Positions 7,834-42,631 of a DNA stretch of 46,993 nucleotides are shown in pieces. The position numbers and the translations under genes are program-made. Source of the stretch: a bacterium (GTDB lineage Bacteria > Vulcanimicrobiota > Vulcanimicrobiia > Vulcanimicrobiales > SCRA01); the NCBI GenBank assembly GCA_004298675.1, contig SCRI01000027.1:1-46993 (forward strand), in the 5' to 3' direction. Each line of letters starts with the position of its first letter. The first letter of the stretch is position 1. The notes below the pieces were generated by a model. That model did not search any database. It had not been told where the DNA came from and was given only the letters and a program-made list of their open reading frames with translations.

Positions 7834-11607
<3,774 letters not shown>

Positions 11608-11613
11608 CGTTGA

Positions 11614-15369
<3,756 letters not shown>

Positions 15370-32253: not shown

Positions 32254-33234
32254 ATGCGCGCACCCACCCCACGCTCGACCCGAGTCCGAACGCCGCTACG
32301 CTCCCTGCACCAGCACGTGAAGCGTTTCCGTCAGCAACGGCGCGTTCAAGCCGGTTCGTTGATCGTCTCGATTTTCGGTGATGCCGTGCTGCCGCGGGGA
32401 GGCTGTATCTGGCTGGGGTCACTGATCCGCTTGCTGGAGCCCCTGGGTGTAAGCGAACGGCTGGTGAGAACCGCTGCCTCGCGGCTGGTGAAAGACGGGT
32501 GGTTGCGCACGCAGAGCCTTGGCCGGCGTTCGAATTATCTCCTGACCGACACCGGACGCAGGCGTTTCGGGCAGGCTGCGCGCCGCATCTACGCCTCCAG
32601 CACACCGCCATGGGACCGCCACTGGCGCTTGATCCTGCTCGTCGGCGACCTCAACGCCAAGGAGCGCGAGCGCATCCGCAAGGCCCTCTTTTGGCAAGGC
32701 TTCGGAACGCTCAACGGCGACTGCTGCGTGCATCCCAACGCCGACCTGGTCTCAGCCTTCGACGCGCTGGCCGCGGAAGGGCTCGGCGCCTACGTTCCGC
32801 GGCTCATGCCGCTGCAATCCGGCGACGGCATGCGCATCACCTCGACCAACAACGGCGATCTCGTGCGGCGAGCCTGGAATCTCGAGGGGCTGCGCACCGG
32901 CTACGACGCGTTCATCCGCGCCTACCAACCTATCTACACGGAGCTCGCTTCCGAGACGGGGTCCGGCGTGGCGGAGGAAGACGCGTTTCTCGTCCGTGTT
33001 CTGCTGATCCACGACTACCGGCGCCTGCTGCTGCGCGATCCCGGCCTCCCCGACGCGCTGCTGCCCCGCGACTGGCCCGGCCAGGAGGCACGTAGGCTCT
33101 GTCGCGACATCTACCGCTCCTTGATGGTGCCGTCGGAACGCCACCTGACGCTGCATCTGCAGCTCGCCGACGGATCGACTCCGGCAGCCGACGCCTCGCT
33201 CAAGGCGCGCTTTTCCGCAGCGCCACCAGGGTGA
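32254..33234 (+). CDS. paaX: PaaX-family phenylacetate regulator
   Basis: The 326-residue protein has a GntR-like winged HTH (SLIVSIFGDAVLPRGGCIWL, then RLVRTAASRLVKDGWL) and the PaaX C-terminal domains (WRLILLVGD; YDAFIRAYQPI; LVRVLLIHDYRRLLLRDPGLPDALLP), ending near LPRDWPGQEAR. PaaX represses paa genes and is released by phenylacetyl-CoA in Escherichia coli. The ATG at 32254 is chosen, with a GTG at 32245 possible. It converges on the paa operon and overlaps the paaZ 3' end by 35 bases. Confidence 0.92.
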   Translation: MRAPTPRSTRVRTPLRSLHQHVKRFRQQRRVQAGSLIVSIFGDAVLPRGGCIWLGSLIRLLEPLGVSERLVRTAASRLVKDGWLRTQSLGRRSNYLLTDTGRRRFGQAARRIYASSTPPWDRHWRLILLVGDLNAKERERIRKALFWQGFGTLNGDCCVHPNADLVSAFDALAAEGLGAYVPRLMPLQSGDGMRITSTNNGDLVRRAWNLEGLRTGYDAFIRAYQPIYTELASETGSGVAEEDAFLVRVLLIHDYRRLLLRDPGLPDALLPRDWPGQEARRLCRDIYRSLMVPSERHLTLHLQLADGSTPAADASLKARFSAAPPG

Positions 33235-35284
33235 GGACGTCGTAGCTGGCCACCAGCTCGTCATCCTGATTGCGAACCTCGACGTCCCACGTCACCACAC
33301 CCTGCCGGCGCCCCTGCGCATCGCTCTTGTGGCGGTCCACCTTACGCTTGCAGGTCAACCGCGCCTGGATGGTGTCGCCGATGCGCACCGGCTTGATGAA
33401 GCGTAGCGCGTCTAGTCCGTAGTTTGCCAGTACCGGGCCCGGCGCGGGAGAGACGAAGAGCCCGGCGGCGGCGGAGAGCACGAAGTAGCCATGGGCGATA
33501 CGCTGCCCAAATTGCGACTCGCGCGCGGCAACCTCGTCGAAATGCATGTAGAAATAGTCGCCGGAGAGGCCGCCGAAGGCGACGATGTCCGCCTCCGTCA
33601 CCGTGCGCCGGTGCGTGAGTAGCGACTCACCGATCTTCAGCTCGTCGTAATACCGCCGGAACGGATGGACCTCGCTCTCCAACACGCGTGCGCCGCGTAC
33701 GTACTCACCGGCCACGGCGGAGATCATCGTGGGCGAGCCTTGCACGGCGGCGCGCTGCAAGTAGTGCATGACGGCGCGCAACCCACCCAGCTCCTCGCCG
33801 CCACCGGCCCGGCCGGGGCCGCCGTGCTTGAGCGGCGGCAGAGGCGAGCCGTGGCCGGTCGATTCCGGTGCCGCTTCTGCGTCGAGCACCAGAACGCGGC
33901 CATGATGCACGGCCGCGCGCCGGACGGCATGCGCCGCGAGCGCGGGGTCGCGCGTCACGACCGACGCCACCAGACTGCCCTGCCCGCGCGCCGCGAGTGC
34001 CAGCGCTTCGTCGAAATCATCGTAGGGCAGCACCGTGCTGACCGGCCCGAAGACCTCGACGTCATGTACCGCCGCCGTCTCGTGCGGACGCTCGCACAGC
34101 AGCAGCGTAGGCATGACAAAGGCCCCGTAGCGAGCGTCGCCACTGGCGGGGCCGCCGGCGGCGGAGCCGTCGTAGATGGTCGAGCAGACGGTCTGGAGAC
34201 TCTTCATCCGTGCGAGAACGTCCGCTTGCTGTGCGACGCTCGCAAGCGGTCCCATCTTCACGCCGTCTCCGCGCGGGTCGCCCACGACAACCCGCGCCAG
34301 CCGGCTGCAGAGCCGCTCGGAGAGCGCCTCCGCCACCGCGCGCGGTGCCAAGACGCGCCGGATGGCCGTGCACTTCTGACCGGCCTTCACCCGCATCTCC
34401 TTCACCACTTCAGCAGCGAAGAGATCGAACTCGGGGTCGTTAGGCGTGACATCCGGTGCGAGGATGGCGCTGTTGAGCGAGTCCGCCTCCGTGTTGAACG
34501 GAACGCCACGCGCCAGCAGATTCGCATTGCCGCGCAGTAGCGCGGCGGTGGCCGCCGACCCGGTGAAGGTAACGCTGTCCTGGCCGTTCAGTCGATCCAG
34601 CAGATCGCCGGTCCGGCCGATCACGAGCTGTAGGCTGCCCGCGGGCAAACCACCATACTCGAGCATGAGCCGCATCAGCGCCCACGTAAGATACGAGGTA
34701 CTGGTGGCGGGTTTCGCGATGCAGGGCATCCCGGCGACGAAACTCGGAGCGAACTTCTCGAGCAAGCCCCAGACCGGGAAGTTGAAGGCGTTGATGTGCA
34801 CCGCAACGCCCTCACGCGGAACGAGGATATGGCTGCCGACGAAGTGCCCCTGCTTGCCGAGCGAAACCACCGGCCCTTCGTGCAGCACGTTTCCATCGGG
34901 CAGCTCGCGGCTGCCCAAACTCGCGTACGCAAACAGCGTCCCGATACCGCCTTCGATATCGATCCAACTATCGGCACGCGTCGCGCCGGTGTGAAACGAC
35001 CACGCGTACAGTTCCTCCTTGCGCTCGGTGAGGAACGCGGCTAGCGCTTTGAGGCGCCGCGCACGCTCCTGAAAATCGAGCGCGAGCAGGTTGCGCACGC
35101 CCTCTGCGCGCGCGTGGCTCAGAGCCTCACCGAAGTCAGGCGTTTCGCCGTGCGTGCGCGCGACCACGACGCCCGTAGCGGCATCAAGGAGCGACTCGTT
35201 GGCTTTGCCGCCGAACCACCGGCCGGCTAGGTGACTCTGCAGGACGGGGGCATCGACGTGGGGAGCGTGCGCGATCTCGGTCAT
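33200..35284 (-). CDS. paaZ: PaaZ, oxepin-CoA hydrolase / 3-oxo-5,6-dehydrosuberyl-CoA semialdehyde dehydrogenase
   Basis: The 694-residue protein fuses an N-terminal aldehyde dehydrogenase (GQKCTAIRR, catalytic Cys near residue 305; NTEADSLNSA with the Glu) to a C-terminal MaoC-like hydratase (from about residue 545, with FGGLSGDYFYMHFDE as the catalytic Asp/His motif). It opens the oxepin-CoA ring and oxidises the resulting aldehyde. The ATG at 35284 has AGGTAGAGGA upstream; the longer open frame back to 35665 overlaps paaJ and is not conserved. This is the last gene of the operon. Confidence 0.94.
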   Translation of the reverse strand: MTEIAHAPHVDAPVLQSHLAGRWFGGKANESLLDAATGVVVARTHGETPDFGEALSHARAEGVRNLLALDFQERARRLKALAAFLTERKEELYAWSFHTGATRADSWIDIEGGIGTLFAYASLGSRELPDGNVLHEGPVVSLGKQGHFVGSHILVPREGVAVHINAFNFPVWGLLEKFAPSFVAGMPCIAKPATSTSYLTWALMRLMLEYGGLPAGSLQLVIGRTGDLLDRLNGQDSVTFTGSAATAALLRGNANLLARGVPFNTEADSLNSAILAPDVTPNDPEFDLFAAEVVKEMRVKAGQKCTAIRRVLAPRAVAEALSERLCSRLARVVVGDPRGDGVKMGPLASVAQQADVLARMKSLQTVCSTIYDGSAAGGPASGDARYGAFVMPTLLLCERPHETAAVHDVEVFGPVSTVLPYDDFDEALALAARGQGSLVASVVTRDPALAAHAVRRAAVHHGRVLVLDAEAAPESTGHGSPLPPLKHGGPGRAGGGEELGGLRAVMHYLQRAAVQGSPTMISAVAGEYVRGARVLESEVHPFRRYYDELKIGESLLTHRRTVTEADIVAFGGLSGDYFYMHFDEVAARESQFGQRIAHGYFVLSAAAGLFVSPAPGPVLANYGLDALRFIKPVRIGDTIQARLTCKRKVDRHKSDAQGRRQGVVTWDVEVRNQDDELVASYDVLTLVALRKSAP

Positions 35285-35309: not shown

Positions 35310-36521
35310 TTATGGACGCTCGAGCGCCAGCGCAACGCCCTGCCCGATACCAACGCACATCGTGGCCAATGCGCGCTTTCCCTGCACGCGCTCCGCTTGG
35401 CGCAGCGCCGTGAGAACCAAGCGCGAGCCGGAGGCTCCCAGCGGATGTCCCAGCGCGATGGCGCCGCCGTTGGGGTTGACACGCCGGTCGTCGCCGGACA
35501 AGCCCAGCCGGCGTAGCACCGCCAGTGCCTGCGCGGCAAAAGCTTCGTTGAGCTCGATCGCATCGAGACTCTCCAGGCTCCACGCGAGGCGAGAGAGCAG
35601 CTTGCGTGTCGCCGGCACCGGGCCCATTCCCATGATGCGCGGCTCCACGCCCGCGCTGGAGGCACCGGCCACGCGCGCGCGGGGCGTGAGATTCCAGCGC
35701 CGTACGGCTTCGTCGGAGGCCAACAACAAGGCGCAAGCGCCGTCGTTCACACCGGAGGAGTTGCCGGCCGTCACGCTGCCGCCGGGACGCACCGACGGGC
35801 GCAGCCGGCTCAGTTGCTCGAGCGTGGTACCGGTACGGGGATGCTCGTCGCGCTCCACGATCTGCGACTCACCCTTTGCGCGCGCAACTTCCACCGGCAC
35901 GATCTCGCCCGCGAAGAAACCCGCCTGTTGTGCCTGCTCGCATTTGCGCTGCGAAGCCACGGCAAAGACATCTTGATCCTCGCGCGACACGCCGAACTCG
36001 GCGGCCACGTTCTCCGCCGTCTCGAGCATGGAGTCGATACCGACGCGCGCCTCGAGCTTCGGATTGACGAAACGCCAACCGATCGTGCTGTCGGCCATCT
36101 CGGCTTTACGCGAGAACGCCGCATCGGCCTTACCCACGACGAACGGCGCGCGCGACATGCTCTCCACGCCGCCGGCTAGCACGAGGTCCGCCGCTCCGCA
36201 AGCGATGGCACGTGCGGCTTGCGCCACGGCCTCCATCCCGGATCCGCACAGACGGTTCACCGTGCAGCCCGGCACCGTGACGGGAAGGCCCGCCAACAGA
36301 CCCACCATCCGCGCGACGTTGCGGCAGTCTTCCCCGGCCTGGTTTGCGCAGCCGTAGTAGAGCTCGTCCAACGTCTCCCAATCGATGCCGGCATTGCGCT
36401 CCATCAGCGCGCGTACCGGGACGGCGCCGAGGTCGTCCGGGCGCACCGCGGCCAGCGCGCCGCCGTAGCGCCCGAAGGGCGTTCGCCAACCGTCCACGAT
36501 CCAGGCCGGTCTGCTAAGCAT
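35310..36521 (-). CDS. paaJ: 3-oxoadipyl-CoA / 3-oxo-5,6-dehydrosuberyl-CoA thiolase
   Basis: The 403-residue thiolase has the nucleophilic cysteine in NRLCGSGMEA, the histidine in GHPLGASGSR and the second cysteine in CVGIGQG. PaaJ cleaves two intermediates of the pathway to acetyl-CoA and succinyl-CoA. Its start overlaps the paaK end by 8 bases. PcaF of the beta-ketoadipate pathway is very close; the operon context favours PaaJ. Confidence 0.92.
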   Translation of the reverse strand: MLSRPAWIVDGWRTPFGRYGGALAAVRPDDLGAVPVRALMERNAGIDWETLDELYYGCANQAGEDCRNVARMVGLLAGLPVTVPGCTVNRLCGSGMEAVAQAARAIACGAADLVLAGGVESMSRAPFVVGKADAAFSRKAEMADSTIGWRFVNPKLEARVGIDSMLETAENVAAEFGVSREDQDVFAVASQRKCEQAQQAGFFAGEIVPVEVARAKGESQIVERDEHPRTGTTLEQLSRLRPSVRPGGSVTAGNSSGVNDGACALLLASDEAVRRWNLTPRARVAGASSAGVEPRIMGMGPVPATRKLLSRLAWSLESLDAIELNEAFAAQALAVLRRLGLSGDDRRVNPNGGAIALGHPLGASGSRLVLTALRQAERVQGKRALATMCVGIGQGVALALERP

Positions 36522-37830
36522 CTTTGGGGCGCCGATCGATCACGCGCCGCGCCTTGCCGACCAGGGTCCGCTCGATCGAATCTGCCGGCAGGACGTGCAC
36601 GCTGCAGGTGACGCCCACCATCGTCTTGATACGGTGGGCGACCCACTGCGCGATCTGCTGGCGCTCCTGCTCCGACACGTAGCTGAGGAACGGCTCCAGC
36701 TCGCAGTGTACCTCCATCTTGTCGAGGTAGTTGTCGCGGCTGAGGTGGATCTGGTACATGCCCGAGAGTTTGTCGTGACGGAGTACGATTTCTTCGATCT
36801 GCGTGGGGAAGACATTGACGCCGCGCACGATGAGCATGTCGTCGCTGCGCCCCACGATCTTGTCGAGCCGGCGGAACGCGCGTGCCGTAGGAGGCAGCAG
36901 ACGCGTCAGGTCCCGCGTGCGATAGCGGATGACGGGAAAGCCTTGTTTAGTCAACGTCGTAAAGACCAGCTCGCCTTGGCTGCCGTCGGGCAGAACCTCG
37001 CCACTGACCGGATCGATGATCTCCGGATAGAAATGGTCCTCCCAGACCACCGGCCCATCCTGAGACTCCGCGCACTCGCAGGCTACGCCCGGTCCCATGA
37101 CCTCGCTCAAACCGTAGATGTCCACGGCTTTCAAACTCGTCTTCGTCTCGATGTCGCTGCGCATCGCCTCGGTCCATGGCTCGGCGCCGAAGATGCCGAT
37201 GCGCAACGAGCAGTCGCGCGCGTCCAAGCCCTGATGGGCGAACTCCTCGATGAGGACCTGCATGTAGCTCGGCGTGACCATGATGATGTCGGGCTTGAAA
37301 TCACGGATGAGCTGCACCTGTTTTTCGGTCTGCCCGCCCGAGACGGGGACGACCGTGCAACCTAAACGCTCGGCGCCGTAATGCGCGCCTAGCCCGCCCG
37401 TGAAGAGGCCGTAACCGTAGGAGACGTGCACGATGTCGCCAGGCTTACCGCCCGCGGCGCGGATCGAGCGCGCGACCAGGTCCGCCCACGTGTCGATGTC
37501 TTCCTGCGTATAGCCGACCACGGTGGGTTTTCCGGTCGTCCCCGAAGAGGCGTGCACGCGCACGATCCGTTCGCGCGGCACGGCGAACATTCCAAAGGGA
37601 TAATTGGCGCGCAGATCGGCTTTGGTGGTGAAGGGAAACTTCGCGAGGTCGGCAATGCCGCGGAAGTCGTCCGGATGGACGCCGTGTTCGTCGAAGGCGT
37701 GGCGATAGTGGGCGACGTTTTCGTAGACGTGCTTGAGCGTCCAGCGAAGCCGCTGCGTCTGCAACGCGCTGATCTCATCTCGACTTGCATGTTCGCTCGG
37801 ATCGTAAGCGGCTTGGCTGGCGTTCAACAT
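36514..37830 (-). CDS. paaK: Phenylacetate-CoA ligase
   Basis: The 438-residue AMP-forming ligase has the nucleotide-binding loop SSGTTGKP, the adenylate motif YGLSEVMGPG, and the C-terminal GRSDDM and KVLPADSIERTLVGKARR-like catalytic region (here SIERTLVGKARRVIDR). It activates phenylacetate to phenylacetyl-CoA. Length and motifs match PaaK closely. Confidence 0.96.
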   Translation of the reverse strand: MLNASQAAYDPSEHASRDEISALQTQRLRWTLKHVYENVAHYRHAFDEHGVHPDDFRGIADLAKFPFTTKADLRANYPFGMFAVPRERIVRVHASSGTTGKPTVVGYTQEDIDTWADLVARSIRAAGGKPGDIVHVSYGYGLFTGGLGAHYGAERLGCTVVPVSGGQTEKQVQLIRDFKPDIIMVTPSYMQVLIEEFAHQGLDARDCSLRIGIFGAEPWTEAMRSDIETKTSLKAVDIYGLSEVMGPGVACECAESQDGPVVWEDHFYPEIIDPVSGEVLPDGSQGELVFTTLTKQGFPVIRYRTRDLTRLLPPTARAFRRLDKIVGRSDDMLIVRGVNVFPTQIEEIVLRHDKLSGMYQIHLSRDNYLDKMEVHCELEPFLSYVSEQERQQIAQWVAHRIKTMVGVTCSVHVLPADSIERTLVGKARRVIDRRPKDA

Positions 37831-37851: not shown

Positions 37852-38313
37852 TTAGCGTTGGCCGTCGGTGTGGGTTCCTAGCACGGTTTTAGCGGTGAGC
37901 CGATAGGAGCGTCCGCGAAAGAGCGCGACGCGTTCCAGGCGCTGATTAACCACCACCACGTCATAAACGCCGGTGCGGCCGCTGAGCGCCTGCTCGGCGC
38001 AACTGGCGGTGAGCTCGTCTCCGAGCTTGACGGAGGCGATGAAGTCGATGCTCAGGCTCGCCGCGACGGTGGCGTGGTTGTAACTGTTACACGCATAGGC
38101 AAAGGCGGTATCGGCGAGCGTTGTGATCAGCCCGCCGTGGCACGATCCAAAGCCGTTGAGCATGTCGGCTCGCACCAGCATCCGCGCCACGCAGCCGCCG
38201 GGGCTGACTTCCAGCACCTCGATGCCCAAGGCGCGCGTGGCGCCGTCGTCGGCCAACATACGATCGCGCACCAATTCGGCCACGCGTTGCGCGCTCAGCG
38301 CGGAAGTCTCCAT
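37852..38313 (-). CDS. paaI: PaaI, hydroxyphenylacetyl-CoA thioesterase
   Basis: The 153-residue hot-dog thioesterase has the pattern MLNGFGSCHGGLITTLADTAFAYACN, where the HGG and the acidic residue in LADTAFA are the family's catalytic features. It rescues CoA from dead-end intermediates. It sits 21 bases upstream of paaK on the minus strand. It is preceded by paaG. Confidence 0.92.
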   Translation of the reverse strand: METSALSAQRVAELVRDRMLADDGATRALGIEVLEVSPGGCVARMLVRADMLNGFGSCHGGLITTLADTAFAYACNSYNHATVAASLSIDFIASVKLGDELTASCAEQALSGRTGVYDVVVVNQRLERVALFRGRSYRLTAKTVLGTHTDGQR

Positions 38314-38325
38314 GGCGGCGCGCCC

Positions 38326-39132
38326 TCAGCGGTCCGTAAACCGCGGCGGGCGCTTCTGCGCAAATGCAGCGACGCCTTCGGCGAAATCGGACGCAAAACC
38401 GAGCTCGCGCTGCGCCTGCGCTTCCGCATCCAAAGCAGCTTCCAGTGACGTGCCCAGCCCGCGATCGAGCAGCGCGCGGGTCCGCGCCAGCGCGCGCACC
38501 GGCAGCGCCGCCAAGCGCGCCGCCACGGCCACGACCTCGGACTCGAACGCGGCGTCGTCGACGCACGCCCAGATCAAGCCCATCTGCTCGGCGCGCTCGG
38601 CGGGGAGCTTCTCTCCCAAGAGGCACAGGCCCAGCGCACGCGCGCGGCCGGCCAAGCGCGGCAGCACCCAGGTTGCGCCGGTGTCGGGGATCAGCCCGAG
38701 TGCTGAAAAGGCCTGTACGAACGAGGCACCGCGGCGGGCTATGGCGATATCGCACAGCAAGGCGAGCGACGCGCCGGCTCCCGCCGCAACGCCGTTGACG
38801 GCCGCTACGGTCGGCACGGGCATCGCGCGCAGGCGCAGCGCCAGCGGCTTATAGTTGCGCTCGACGACATCGCCCAGGTCTTTGACGCTACCATCGTCCG
38901 GGGCCACGGCGGGGTCTTTCAAGTCTTGACCGGCGCAGAACGCACGCCCGGCGCCGGTGAGCACCACGCAGCGCACCTCGCGCTGCTCCGCGGCCTCGTC
39001 GAGGGCGCGCTGCAACGCGGCGATGAGCGCGCCGTCCAGGCTATTCAAGGCCTCCGGACGATTGAGCGTCAGCGTCAAGACGCTCCCGCGCCGCTCCGCG
39101 AGCAAGTTCGGCGGGCTCTCTTGCATCATCAT
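38326..39132 (-). CDS. paaG: PaaG, ring-1,2-epoxyphenylacetyl-CoA isomerase
   Basis: The 268-residue crotonase has the oxyanion-hole segment FCAGQDLKD and the NGVAAGAGASLALLCDIAIA region, followed by LGLIPDTGATWVLPR, in which the Asp matches the PaaG catalytic acid. It converts the ring epoxide to oxepin-CoA and also isomerises later enoyl-CoAs. PaaB/PaaF-type hydratases are related, but the PDTG context favours PaaG. Start at 39132, one base after the reductase stop. Confidence 0.86.
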   Translation of the reverse strand: MMMQESPPNLLAERRGSVLTLTLNRPEALNSLDGALIAALQRALDEAAEQREVRCVVLTGAGRAFCAGQDLKDPAVAPDDGSVKDLGDVVERNYKPLALRLRAMPVPTVAAVNGVAAGAGASLALLCDIAIARRGASFVQAFSALGLIPDTGATWVLPRLAGRARALGLCLLGEKLPAERAEQMGLIWACVDDAAFESEVVAVAARLAALPVRALARTRALLDRGLGTSLEAALDAEAQAQRELGFASDFAEGVAAFAQKRPPRFTDR

Positions 39133-39133
39133 G

Positions 39134-40183
39134 TCAGACCGGCAGCGCCGGCGCAGGAGCGACGACAGCCAACTCTTGCTGCGTGAAGAAACGCTCCTTA
39201 TGGGTGGTCTGCTCCGGTGCACCCAAGGTTCGCGCGGTGCTCAGGCAGGCATCCACGAAAGCCGGGCTACCCGCCAGAAAGACGCTGTGTTTGGAGAGGT
39301 CGGGATAGAGACCGGGTAGGATGGCGTCGATGCGTCCGCTCGAGAAACCTTCGGCGCGCTCGCGCGTCAACGTGATCGAGTAGTCGAAGTTACGATGCTT
39401 GGTGCGCCACCATGTCATCATCCCGGCACCGTAGACGTCGTCACGAGTGCGCGCGGAGAAGATGAGGTTGACGCGCTGCTTGTAGCCGCGCCGCAGCGCT
39501 GCTTCGGTCAGTGCCAAGAGCGGTGCCAGGCCGGTCCCCGCCGCCAGGCAGAGCACCGGCGTTTCAACGGATGGATCACCGATGAACGCGCCGTAAGCGC
39601 CCGAGACCTTGACGGAGGCGCCGATGTTGAGCGTTTCGTGAATCCAGCGGCTCGTCACGCCGTCGTCTTCGCGGGCAATCTGGAGGACGATCTCGCCGTC
39701 AGGACGCGGTGCGTTGGAGATCGAGTACGGGCGTGCCGGGATCCCGGCGTAGGCGTCGCCCAGCGTGACGTATTGACCCGGCCAGTAGCGCAGGATCTGG
39801 CCGACTGGGCGCAGGTGCAGCTCGGCGACCCGCGCGGCGACCATGCGCTTGTCCACCACGACGAAGAGCGCATCCTCACGCGGCGGAAACAGCTTGGGCA
39901 GCGCGTCCAGCGTGCCCCAATCGATCACCATCTCTTCGGAGATGGGCTTGGCCATACACATCAGGCCGTAGCCCTGACGCCGTTCCTCCGGCGTCAGGGC
40001 CATGTCCAGAACCACGCCTTGATCGAACTGGCCTTCGAGAACTTTGACTTTACATTCGCCGCACGCGCCCGCGCGACAGTTGTTGGGGAGGGCATACCCG
40101 CCCTTCTCCAAAGCGGTCAAGACAGTCTCGCCGCTGGGGCACTCCACCGACTTGCCAGAGGGATGCAGCACGACACGCGCCAT
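39134..40183 (-). CDS. Ferredoxin-type NAD(P)H reductase for a diiron oxygenase
   Basis: The 349-residue protein starts with a plant-type [2Fe-2S] ferredoxin (cysteines 36, 41, 44 and 76), followed by FAD-binding (RPYSISNAPR) and NAD-binding domains (CLAAGTGLAPLLAL). This order is that of MmoC, DmpP and XylA reductases. PaaE, the usual phenylacetyl-CoA epoxidase reductase, has the ferredoxin domain at the C-terminus instead. AAGGAG eight bases upstream supports the ATG at 40183. It lies 30 bases downstream of the diiron gene and should supply its electrons. Confidence 0.9.
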   Translation of the reverse strand: MARVVLHPSGKSVECPSGETVLTALEKGGYALPNNCRAGACGECKVKVLEGQFDQGVVLDMALTPEERRQGYGLMCMAKPISEEMVIDWGTLDALPKLFPPREDALFVVVDKRMVAARVAELHLRPVGQILRYWPGQYVTLGDAYAGIPARPYSISNAPRPDGEIVLQIAREDDGVTSRWIHETLNIGASVKVSGAYGAFIGDPSVETPVLCLAAGTGLAPLLALTEAALRRGYKQRVNLIFSARTRDDVYGAGMMTWWRTKHRNFDYSITLTRERAEGFSSGRIDAILPGLYPDLSKHSVFLAGSPAFVDACLSTARTLGAPEQTTHKERFFTQQELAVVAPAPALPV

Positions 40184-40213
40184 CCTACCCACTCCTTGCA
40201 CGCACCAGCGTGA

Positions 40214-41242
40214 CTAGAACACCGGGACGATGTCGTCCATCTCGACGTCGGAGATCTCCTCACCGGTGATGCCGACTTCGGGAATGGCAGGGAAGGGGAT
40301 CTGGTAGCGGTCGAGCACGCCCTTGAGATTGAGAATGGCGTTGCGCCAGTTCTCGCGCTTCATCTCGTAGCTGGGGATACCGAAGCCGGCGGCGCGAGCC
40401 ACCGCCTCGGCCTCACGCTGCGTCACGATGAAGTCGGCGGGCAGATCCCAGAAATCGGCCGGCGGCTCGAACAGCACGGCGGAAAGGAAGAGATAGCCAG
40501 CCCGGATCTGCTTGGTGATGATCGGCTTGTTTTCCGGCGCCAGCTTGGGGTAGTCGCGCTCCATAACGGCCATGCAAATCGCCATGTGGCGCCCCTCGTC
40601 GCGGCCGATATTGCGGAAGGCCTCCTTGAAGACCGGCTCGCGCGAGTTCTCGTACATCTGCTTGAAGATGGTGGCGGCGGCGATCTCGCCCATCAAGAAC
40701 GAGCTGAAAAGCACGGCTAGCTCGTACTTTGGCACGGCGGTCTTGTAACCAGTCCAATAGCGCCCGCCGTTGAAGTACAACCACTTCGCGTTCTTCAGCA
40801 AGCGCTTCCCAAGATCGGTCTTGGGCTGGTAGGTGAGAGGATCGGTGTGGCCCAGGAACTTGGTGATGGCCAAGCCGCACATCATCTCGTGATTCTGCTC
40901 GTCACGAGTCACCGAGAAGAACGCGCGGCGGACGGGGTCTTCCTCGTGGATTTCGTACGTCTTCACGAGCGCTTCGGCGAACACCGGCGGAGCCGAAGCA
41001 TCGAACACGGAGAGCAGCGTCCACCAGTAGGCGATGGCTTCGCGCTCCTCCCACGAGTAACTCTCGAGGTCGAGCGTATCCCACGGAAGCTTTGCCGGAT
41101 CCCAGCTCTCGCGCAACGAGGCCTCCCATATCTCCTGAAGCTTATGGGTGTCGGCGCGCCATGACAGGGGGTAGACGTTGGGCTGTGGAGTCTCCGGGGG
41201 GAACTCCATCTTGTCCGAAAAGCGATCGTTGTGACCGGACAT
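40214..41242 (-). CDS. Ferritin-like diiron oxygenase replacing PaaABC (candidate new epoxidase)
   Basis: The 342-residue helical protein has two ExxH motifs: E115-Q-N-H118 and E216-G-R-H219. Additional carboxylates E186 (30 residues before E216) and D81 or E90 complete a typical ferritin-like diiron site. No signal or membrane segment is visible. The sequence is unlike PaaA or PaaC, BoxB, AurF or the alpha subunits of soluble methane and toluene monooxygenases as far as I can judge by eye, and it is a single subunit with no beta, gamma or coupling protein gene beside it. It is the first gene of the paa operon and precedes a reductase. The family cannot be named with certainty; an R2-like oxidase is possible. 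ATG at 41242 has GAGGAACAG upstream. Confidence 0.78.
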   Translation of the reverse strand: MSGHNDRFSDKMEFPPETPQPNVYPLSWRADTHKLQEIWEASLRESWDPAKLPWDTLDLESYSWEEREAIAYWWTLLSVFDASAPPVFAEALVKTYEIHEEDPVRRAFFSVTRDEQNHEMMCGLAITKFLGHTDPLTYQPKTDLGKRLLKNAKWLYFNGGRYWTGYKTAVPKYELAVLFSSFLMGEIAAATIFKQMYENSREPVFKEAFRNIGRDEGRHMAICMAVMERDYPKLAPENKPIITKQIRAGYLFLSAVLFEPPADFWDLPADFIVTQREAEAVARAAGFGIPSYEMKRENWRNAILNLKGVLDRYQIPFPAIPEVGITGEEISDVEMDDIVPVF

Positions 41243-41296: not shown

Positions 41297-41326
41297 ATTA
41301 TGATACATAATCTAGGCGTATGTCAA
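41297..41326 (-). promoter_or_regulatory. Sigma-70 promoter of the paa operon
   Basis: On the minus strand, TTGACA (41321-41326, perfect -35) and CATAAT (41297-41302, five of six) are separated by 18 bases. Transcription would begin at about 41290, 48 bases before the diiron protein ATG. No other promoter as good is seen in the following 8 kb of tightly packed genes. Confidence 0.8.
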
Positions 41327-41341
41327 TCTTTTTGTATCATA
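41299..41341. promoter_or_regulatory. Likely PaaX operator: 9-bp inverted repeat bracketing the paa promoter
   Basis: TATGATACA (41299-41307) and TGTATCATA (41333-41341) are exact complements, with a 25-base spacer and 34 bases between centres. The first overlaps the -10 box; the second lies just upstream of the -35 box. The TGAT core resembles half-sites reported for PaaX. A dimer or tetramer bridging the two would block polymerase. Confidence 0.6.
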
Positions 41342-41476: not shown

Positions 41477-42631
41477 ATGGCACAACAGTTCGACTACGTG
41501 ATCGTCGGCGGCGGCGCCGCGGCGGCGACTGCGGTTGAGGGTATCCGCGCGCACGACGAGCGCGGAACGATCGCCATCTTCACGCACGAATGGGCGCCGC
41601 CGTACCAGCGGCCGCCGCTCTCCAAAGAGTTTCTCCAGGCGCGCGCCGGCATTGAGAGCGTGCTAATGCAGCCGGCGCCGTGGTACGGGCAGCGCGGTGC
41701 CAGCGTGTTCGTAGGCTCCGACGTCACCGCGATCCAGCCCGAAGAGCACGCCGTCAGCGCCGGCGACGGCCGCGTCGGATACCGTAAATTACTGCTGGCG
41801 ACGGGGGCGACGCCGCGCCCGCTCGCCGTGCCGGGCGCCGATCTCGAAGGCGTGTTCATGCTGCGCAGTTACCTCGATGGCGAGCGCCTGCGCGCGGTGC
41901 GAGCCACGGCCGAGCGCATCGTGGTCGTCGGCAGCGGCTTCATCGGCATGGAAGTCGCGGCTTCGCTGCGCTCCGGCGGCGCGGCGGTCACCGTCGTCAC
42001 GATGGACGAGCGGCTCTACCTGCCCTTCGGTAACGACGTCTCGGCGTTCGCCAAGAATCTCTTCGACCGCCACGGCGTCACCACGCGCTTCAAGACCACG
42101 CTGCGCTCCATCGACGGCGAGGGACGCGTGAGCGGTGTGACACTCAACGACGGAACGCATTTGGATGCCGATGCCGTAGTGGTGGGCATCGGGGTGGTGC
42201 CGGATACGGACCTGGCTTCCTCCGCTGGACTGCGCGTTGAGAACGGTATCGTGGTGGACGACCGCCTGCGCACGTCGGCGCCTGACGTCTACGCCGCGGG
42301 CGACGTGGCACGCTTCCCTTCGTACCGCGGCACGCTCACGCGCGTGGAGCACTTCGACCACGCCTACGCCTCCGGCAACGCGGCCGGTGCCAACATGGCC
42401 GGCGCCGACCAGCCTTATCGCTACATCCCCTTCTTCTGGAGCGATGTCTTCGAGTTGGGCTTCGAGTTCGTTGGGGAGGTCGCGCCGGATGCGCGAGTGA
42501 GCACGGGCGAGGTGGCGAGCGGCTCCTTCATCGTGGAGTACCACGACGGCAACCGGCTGGCAGGCGCACTGTTGGCGATGCGCTCGGGTGAGGAGCGCGA
42601 CGCCTATCGGAAGCGGATCGAATCGGCGTAA
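41477..42631 (+). CDS. FAD-dependent ferredoxin/rubredoxin reductase-like protein
   Basis: The 384-residue protein has two Rossmann motifs: YVIVGGGAAAATA (FAD) and IVVVGSGFIGMEVA (NAD(P)H), plus VYAAGDVARF near the C-terminus. This is the BphA4 / rubredoxin reductase type. GAGGAG upstream of the ATG is a strong ribosome site. A weak TTGAGA-17-TATGCG lies at 41370-41398. It is divergent from the diiron operon and could be a second electron donor; that is inference. Confidence 0.88.
   Translation: MAQQFDYVIVGGGAAAATAVEGIRAHDERGTIAIFTHEWAPPYQRPPLSKEFLQARAGIESVLMQPAPWYGQRGASVFVGSDVTAIQPEEHAVSAGDGRVGYRKLLLATGATPRPLAVPGADLEGVFMLRSYLDGERLRAVRATAERIVVVGSGFIGMEVAASLRSGGAAVTVVTMDERLYLPFGNDVSAFAKNLFDRHGVTTRFKTTLRSIDGEGRVSGVTLNDGTHLDADAVVVGIGVVPDTDLASSAGLRVENGIVVDDRLRTSAPDVYAAGDVARFPSYRGTLTRVEHFDHAYASGNAAGANMAGADQPYRYIPFFWSDVFELGFEFVGEVAPDARVSTGEVASGSFIVEYHDGNRLAGALLAMRSGEERDAYRKRIESA

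Follow-up and report, generated by a model that had tools for sequence, protein, structure and literature searches.

The window, as we term the whole stretch of 46,993 nucleotides of bacterial DNA analyzed here, constitutes contig C10 of a 3.03 Mb genome (98.5% complete) from a small order outside the Proteobacteria. Its minus strand contains an operon that runs from position 41242 down to 33200 and codes, in this order, for a putative diiron oxygenase component (40214-41242; 342 residues), a reductase (39134-40183; 349 residues), the 1,2-epoxyphenylacetyl-CoA isomerase PaaG (38326-39132), the thioesterase PaaI (37852-38313), the phenylacetate-CoA ligase PaaK (36514-37830), the 3-oxoadipyl-CoA thiolase PaaJ/PcaF (35310-36521) and the oxepin-CoA hydrolase/semialdehyde dehydrogenase fusion PaaZ (33200-35284, the start being inferred). 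The reading frames of the first two genes are intact and the successive gaps are 30, 1, 12, 21, -8 and about 25 bp. The regulator PaaX is encoded on the plus strand, convergently with paaZ (32356-33216, the stretch matched by the HMM). PaaI (TIGR02286), PaaK (TIGR02155), PaaJ/PcaF (TIGR02430), PaaZ (TIGR02278; 959 bits) and PaaX (TIGR02277) exceed their NCBIfam cut-offs, and PaaG has TIGR02280 as its top match but scores below the cut-off (304 against 345 bits). Among solved structures the window PaaG and PaaZ are nearest to the respective E. coli enzymes (PDB: 4fzw_C, 3e-72, and 6jql, 1.6e-235), with which both align over their full length, and PaaG retains the residue aligned with the aspartate of the E. 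coli LIPD motif. The tight order of paaK, paaG, paaZ, paaJ and paaI claimed by a first-pass annotation is thus upheld by coordinates, gaps and profiles, with PaaG below its cut-off. The genes paaF and paaH are missing from the operon; hydratase and dehydrogenase genes are found on another contig, C83. A divergently transcribed gene for a FAD-dependent oxidoreductase-like protein (41477-42631) adjoins the operon promoter; it does not occur directly beside the diiron-reductase pair at other loci.

Two features of the locus were absent from the first-pass annotation, namely paaX on the opposite strand and a palindromic operator, TGATAC-N27-GTATCA, at 41301-41339. This 39 bp element occurs once in the window (chance expectation 0.00) and overlaps the promoter of the operon, which is sigma70-like (TTGACA/CATAAT, approximately 41326-41297, read by eye). 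The same palindrome, with a TTGAC box inside it, precedes the pair at most proteobacterial loci, and is also found before the divergent paaN/paaG operon (e.g. positions 9693 and 9888 of locus L029) and before paaA in Marinospirillum and Nitrincola. This shared palindrome suggests that the pair is part of the paa regulon. PaaX is probably the regulator acting at it, an inference that rests on adjacency.

The diiron protein and its reductase

The first-pass annotation described a 342-residue protein with the motifs E115xxH118 and E216xxH219. Both motifs were confirmed, and to them we add D81 and E186. An alignment of 26 sequences from two phyla showed that D81, E115, H118, E186, E216 and H219 are all invariant; they lie on predicted helices spanning residues 64-82, 103-130, 175-199 and 203-233. 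From the sequence and these predicted helices we infer that D81 and E186, together with the two ExxH motifs, make up a complete six-ligand diiron set of the R2 type, though the metal geometry was not inspected. The protein also has a conserved C-terminus ending in PVF.

The PF05138 and TIGR02156 profiles recovered no match on this protein, and profile-profile comparisons with hhalign gave probabilities of only 0.1% for PaaA, 0.3% for PaaC and 0.4% for BoxB. The AurF profile (PF11583) scored 21.8 bits against a gathering cut-off of 29.6, with relatives of the protein scoring 21-25 bits, and hhalign with a genuine AurF-type paralogue gave a probability of 90.7% over 203 columns. Weak, sub-cut-off matches were further obtained with the profiles of rubrerythrin and the EncB-type ferritin, and a sequence search of the PDB found no usefully related solved protein. 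An AlphaFold2 model (pLDDT 78.7, pTM 0.82) has as its best fold matches ribonucleotide reductase R2 and the R2-like oxidases (TM ~0.5; 12-17% identity), and neither PaaA nor BoxB is among its top 50 structural matches. The profile comparisons and sub-threshold scores rule out an ordinary PaaA, BoxB or AurF. We infer from the sequence and the predicted model that it is a distant AurF/ribonucleotide-reductase-R2-like protein, belonging to an R2/AurF-like lineage present in at least three phyla. No profile assigns it to any family whose known substrate is another one; AurF stays below threshold. As a separate observation, one genome of the order encodes a true AurF-family paralogue (Pfam e-value 2e-16; L115:16107-17054) about 5 kb from its divergent version of the diiron gene.

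The reductase combines a ferredoxin domain (residues 12-86, in the numbering of the longer ORF), which carries the [2Fe-2S] cluster, with FAD-binding (123-206) and NAD-binding (219-319) domains. Its nearest relatives in NCBIfam and the PDB are the BenC/MmoC/TmoF/GcoB-type reductases, the nearest solved ones being GcoB, TmoF and the BenC type, with scores below the equivalog cut-offs. In PaaE the FAD/NADPH domain comes first and the [2Fe-2S] domain last (PMC4498308). The first-pass claim of a ferredoxin-first order opposite to that of PaaE is accordingly borne out by the domain profiles.

Distribution of the pair and of PaaA

The absence of paaA-E noted in the first-pass annotation holds for the operon, which when read through encodes no PaaC alongside the diiron protein. 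At the level of the whole genome, PaaA and PaaC were not found in searches with PF05138 and TIGR02156 (PaaB and PaaD were not searched separately). The only two matches to these profiles, a 475-residue BoxB on contig C32 and a 375-residue BoxB-like protein on C83, score far below the PaaA cut-off and match each other with an hhalign probability of 100%. The BoxB gene (L085:5788-7212) is preceded by a BoxC-like gene, so a distinct box route for aerobic benzoyl-CoA degradation is probably encoded as well. The BoxB-like single-chain oxygenase (L084:6411-7538) is clustered with genes for an enoyl-CoA hydratase, an aldehyde dehydrogenase, a hydroxyacyl-CoA dehydrogenase and a 3-oxoadipyl-CoA-type thiolase; most genomes of the order encode proteins of this kind, 375-415 residues long.

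We examined 103 genomes of the window's order, 38 of which encode PaaZ or PaaN. Exactly one of PaaA and the diiron family is present in 36 of these 38; none of the 103 has both, and the other 65, which also lack PaaZ and PaaN, have neither. The diiron family is found in 20 genomes from nine genera, and PaaA in 16 genomes from eight other genera (in two as fragments at contig edges). Each of the 29 genomes with a PaaZ-type protein has exactly one of the two (13 the family, 16 PaaA; Fisher p=1.5e-8 for exclusion within this set), and in the other seven family genomes PaaN takes the place of PaaZ. The sole PaaN genomes with neither enzyme, G174 (83% complete) and G177 (73%), are incomplete metagenome-assembled genomes. 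These genomes are not phylogenetically independent, and common descent leaves fewer independent events to count, yet the split spans 17 genera. PaaA-like proteins of about 240-250 residues were also noted in four of the 20 family-carrying genomes and in G049. At the two loci that were opened (L144:7245-7961; L145:5080-5832 and 13019-13771) they are encoded beside their own [2Fe-2S] ferredoxin reductase, CoA ligase and thiolase genes rather than paa genes, and might represent another type of two-component CoA-thioester oxygenase.

The version carried by 18 of the 20 family genomes is 44-49% identical to that of the window. Such divergent versions (44-48% identity, in other genera) adjoin PaaN, PaaI, PaaK-like or PaaZ genes, which links them independently to the same pathway, and have no reductase gene adjacent. 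The window protein is only 44-48% identical to the versions from the other taxonomic family of its order and 80-85% identical to betaproteobacterial proteins; the family occurs in just two of the four genomes of its genus, and the window cassette has an operon and operator of the betaproteobacterial type. The high identity and the conserved operator point to the cassette having been passed between the lineage of the window and Betaproteobacteria.

Scanning a single genome for each species, we recovered 227 relatives and inspected the best 80 (75-92% identity). These are mostly from Betaproteobacteria, and the diiron-reductase pair is kept in all 80, usually adjoining paaX and a divergent paaN/paaG-paaH-paaI-paaK-paaJ operon. 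Several cultured Proteobacteria carry the pair without PaaA, including Azonexus hydrophilus DSM 23864, Castellaniella defragrans, C. caeni, Brachymonas denitrificans, Dechloromonas denitrificans and Insolitispirillum peregrinum, and these have paaK, paaG, paaH, paaI, paaJ and paaN in addition. A second profile likewise found no PaaA or PaaC in those strains, C. defragrans yielding only a weak match of BoxB size. In A. hydrophilus the neighborhood codes for PaaN, PaaG, PaaH, PaaI, PaaX and PaaY above cut-off, along with paaK and paaJ; with the remaining paa genes beside the pair, epoxidation is the conspicuous missing step. Within the Azonexus order the family is confined to 10 of 349 sampled genomes.

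Strict exclusivity of the pair and PaaA does not extend to the Proteobacteria; it is ruled out by 30 of the 50 relatives' genomes tested, in which PaaA is also present. In Vitreoscilla filiformis the plasmid pVF1 carries the pair close behind a complete and intact paaABCDE operon, and in Zoogloea dura a similar operon ends in paaABCDE. More distant contexts were also encountered. Two Variovorax plasmids (L140:2725-20975 and L141:5574-20993) encode a diiron protein of about 50% identity with its own reductase, in clusters with an AMP-binding CoA ligase, MaoC, an enoyl-CoA hydratase, a thiolase, an indolepyruvate:ferredoxin oxidoreductase, an Lrp regulator, a branched-chain-type ABC transporter and, in one of the two, PaaN. 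This is likely to be a pathway for aromatic amino acids or aryl-acetates, and the gene context, in the absence of enzyme data, fits an aryl-acetyl-CoA substrate that need not be phenylacetyl-CoA. A homologue in Nonomuraea has no paa genes within 10 kb. Together these contexts suggest that substrates may differ across the diiron family.

Proposed function and alternatives

The absence of PaaA and PaaC, the exclusive distribution in the order, the paa neighbors, the shared palindrome, the invariant ligands and the BenC/MmoC/TmoF-type reductase lead us to propose that the pair is likely to function as a two-component, NAD(P)H-dependent phenylacetyl-CoA 1,2-epoxidase, with an oxygenase non-homologous to PaaABCDE. 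Gene order, domains, ligand residues, the absence of PaaA and PaaC, the shared operator and the co-occurrence are read directly from sequence; substrate, product, activity, electron path and the matching of regulator to operator are inferred, with no biochemistry behind them. In this scheme PaaK would make phenylacetyl-CoA, and electrons would pass from NAD(P)H through the FAD and [2Fe-2S] centers of the reductase to the diiron site of the 342-residue protein, which would activate O2 and epoxidize the ring. PaaG would then convert the epoxide to the oxepin, PaaZ would open and oxidize the oxepin, PaaJ would cleave the product and PaaI would drain surplus thioester; the PaaG and PaaZ steps follow the known pathway, in which the ring epoxide is the PaaG substrate (PMC4498308). 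When phenylacetyl-CoA is present PaaX would derepress the operon, probably via the palindrome.

The co-occurrence of both systems in 30 of 50 relatives and on pVF1 argues against full equivalence to PaaABCDE, and the divergent members without an adjacent reductase and the lack of paaF and paaH in the operon are further points against the epoxidase reading. Where both systems occur the pair might be an additional isoenzyme or have some related aryl-acetyl-CoA as its substrate; many of these lineages are known denitrifiers, and a role as a low-oxygen isoenzyme is conceivable. The survey of other genomes for the pair near paa genes strongly supports replacement, and the first-pass inference of a compact, independently evolved phenylacetyl-CoA oxygenase is thereby supported, its activity still inferred, with the refinement that the pair does not stand in for PaaABCDE in every genome.

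The alternative that survives best, which we nonetheless consider unlikely, is that the pair acts on a related aryl-acetyl-CoA, such as 4-hydroxyphenylacetyl-CoA or indole-3-acetyl-CoA, and is merely co-regulated with paa, another enzyme, perhaps the BoxB-like protein of C83, epoxidizing phenylacetyl-CoA. In its favor are the PaaABCDE systems alongside the pair in those 30 relatives, the indolepyruvate:ferredoxin oxidoreductase clustered with the Variovorax homologues, and the hydratase, aldehyde dehydrogenase and thiolase genes adjoining the BoxB-like gene. Against it, a BoxB-like protein is missing from many genomes that have the family together with PaaZ (e.g. G128, G156, G178 and G179), most genomes of the order have one regardless of PaaZ, no PaaA/PaaC-type protein was found in most of the cultured Proteobacteria that combine the pair with paa genes but have no PaaA, and BoxB does not accept phenylacetyl-CoA (PMC4498308). 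We set aside the C83 protein as the true epoxidase because its distribution does not track PaaZ. A second alternative, hydroxylation of phenylacetyl-CoA (e.g. to 2-hydroxyphenylacetyl-CoA) without an epoxide, draws on the fact that sequence alone does not reveal the product, and diiron R2/AurF-like proteins do catalyze varied oxidations; it appears very improbable as the same operon encodes PaaG and PaaZ, which act on the epoxide and the oxepin. Slightly harder still to sustain is an accessory role in oxygen scavenging, epoxide removal or ferritin-like iron handling, for which the weak rubrerythrin and EncB-type ferritin matches speak. On that reading about a dozen Proteobacteria and 20 genomes of the order would have PaaK/PaaG/PaaZ or PaaN and no oxygenase; moreover, the diiron gene is followed by one for a dedicated NADH reductase, both in the window and at all 80 proteobacterial-type loci.

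Returning to the epoxidase reading, we lean moderately towards a bolder form of it, in which undescribed single-protein AurF/R2-like diiron aryl-acetyl-CoA epoxidases with their own reductase have taken the place of PaaABCDE, or supplement it, both in the phylum of the window and in Alpha-, Beta- and Gammaproteobacteria. In textbooks phenylacetate degradation begins with PaaABCDE, for which there has seemed to be no substitute. A survey of May 2026 retained a ligase only where it co-localizes with PaaABCDE, and the robust pathway markers that it recommends are PaaA and PaaC (PMC13186573); if our proposal is true, surveys so based miss part of aerobic phenylacetate degradation, and the pathway would have to be predicted differently in little-known phyla and in denitrifying Betaproteobacteria. 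A non-homologous two-gene enzyme for this difficult dearomatizing epoxidation would also be a clear instance of convergence, and easier to study and engineer than a multi-subunit complex; the cultured strains make the proposal directly testable. In the open-access literature searched, neither an enzyme family of this kind nor growth phenotypes were described; most subscription journals were outside its scope and novelty is unproven.

Comparison with known systems

The reductase shares its ferredoxin-FAD-NAD order with MmoC, TmoF and BenC, while falling below their equivalog cut-offs. For the diiron protein, the AurF p-aminobenzoate N-oxygenase family (PF11583) is the only detectable sequence kinship, but the match is below the Pfam cut-off, with ~20% identity and another gene context, and the pair has a dedicated reductase. 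Ribonucleotide reductase R2 and the R2-like ligand-binding oxidases provide the best fold matches and the same type of ligand pattern; they differ in the low similarity (TM ~0.5, 12-17% identity) and in that the diiron protein belongs to a catabolic operon. The benzoyl-CoA 2,3-epoxidase BoxAB resembles the pair in uniting one diiron protein with one reductase on an aromatic CoA thioester, but BoxB (475 residues) is a member of the PaaA_PaaC superfamily with no detected homology to the diiron protein, and BoxA has two [4Fe-4S] clusters (PMC4498308). The 1,2-phenylacetyl-CoA epoxidase PaaABC(D)E has the same place in the pathway, the same flanking genes and the same combination of a diiron oxygenase with a flavin/[2Fe-2S] reductase, and in the order of the window it and the pair exclude each other. 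The two differ in that PaaA works with PaaB and PaaC, in the lack of detectable PaaA/PaaC homology of the diiron protein, and in the reversed domain order of PaaE.
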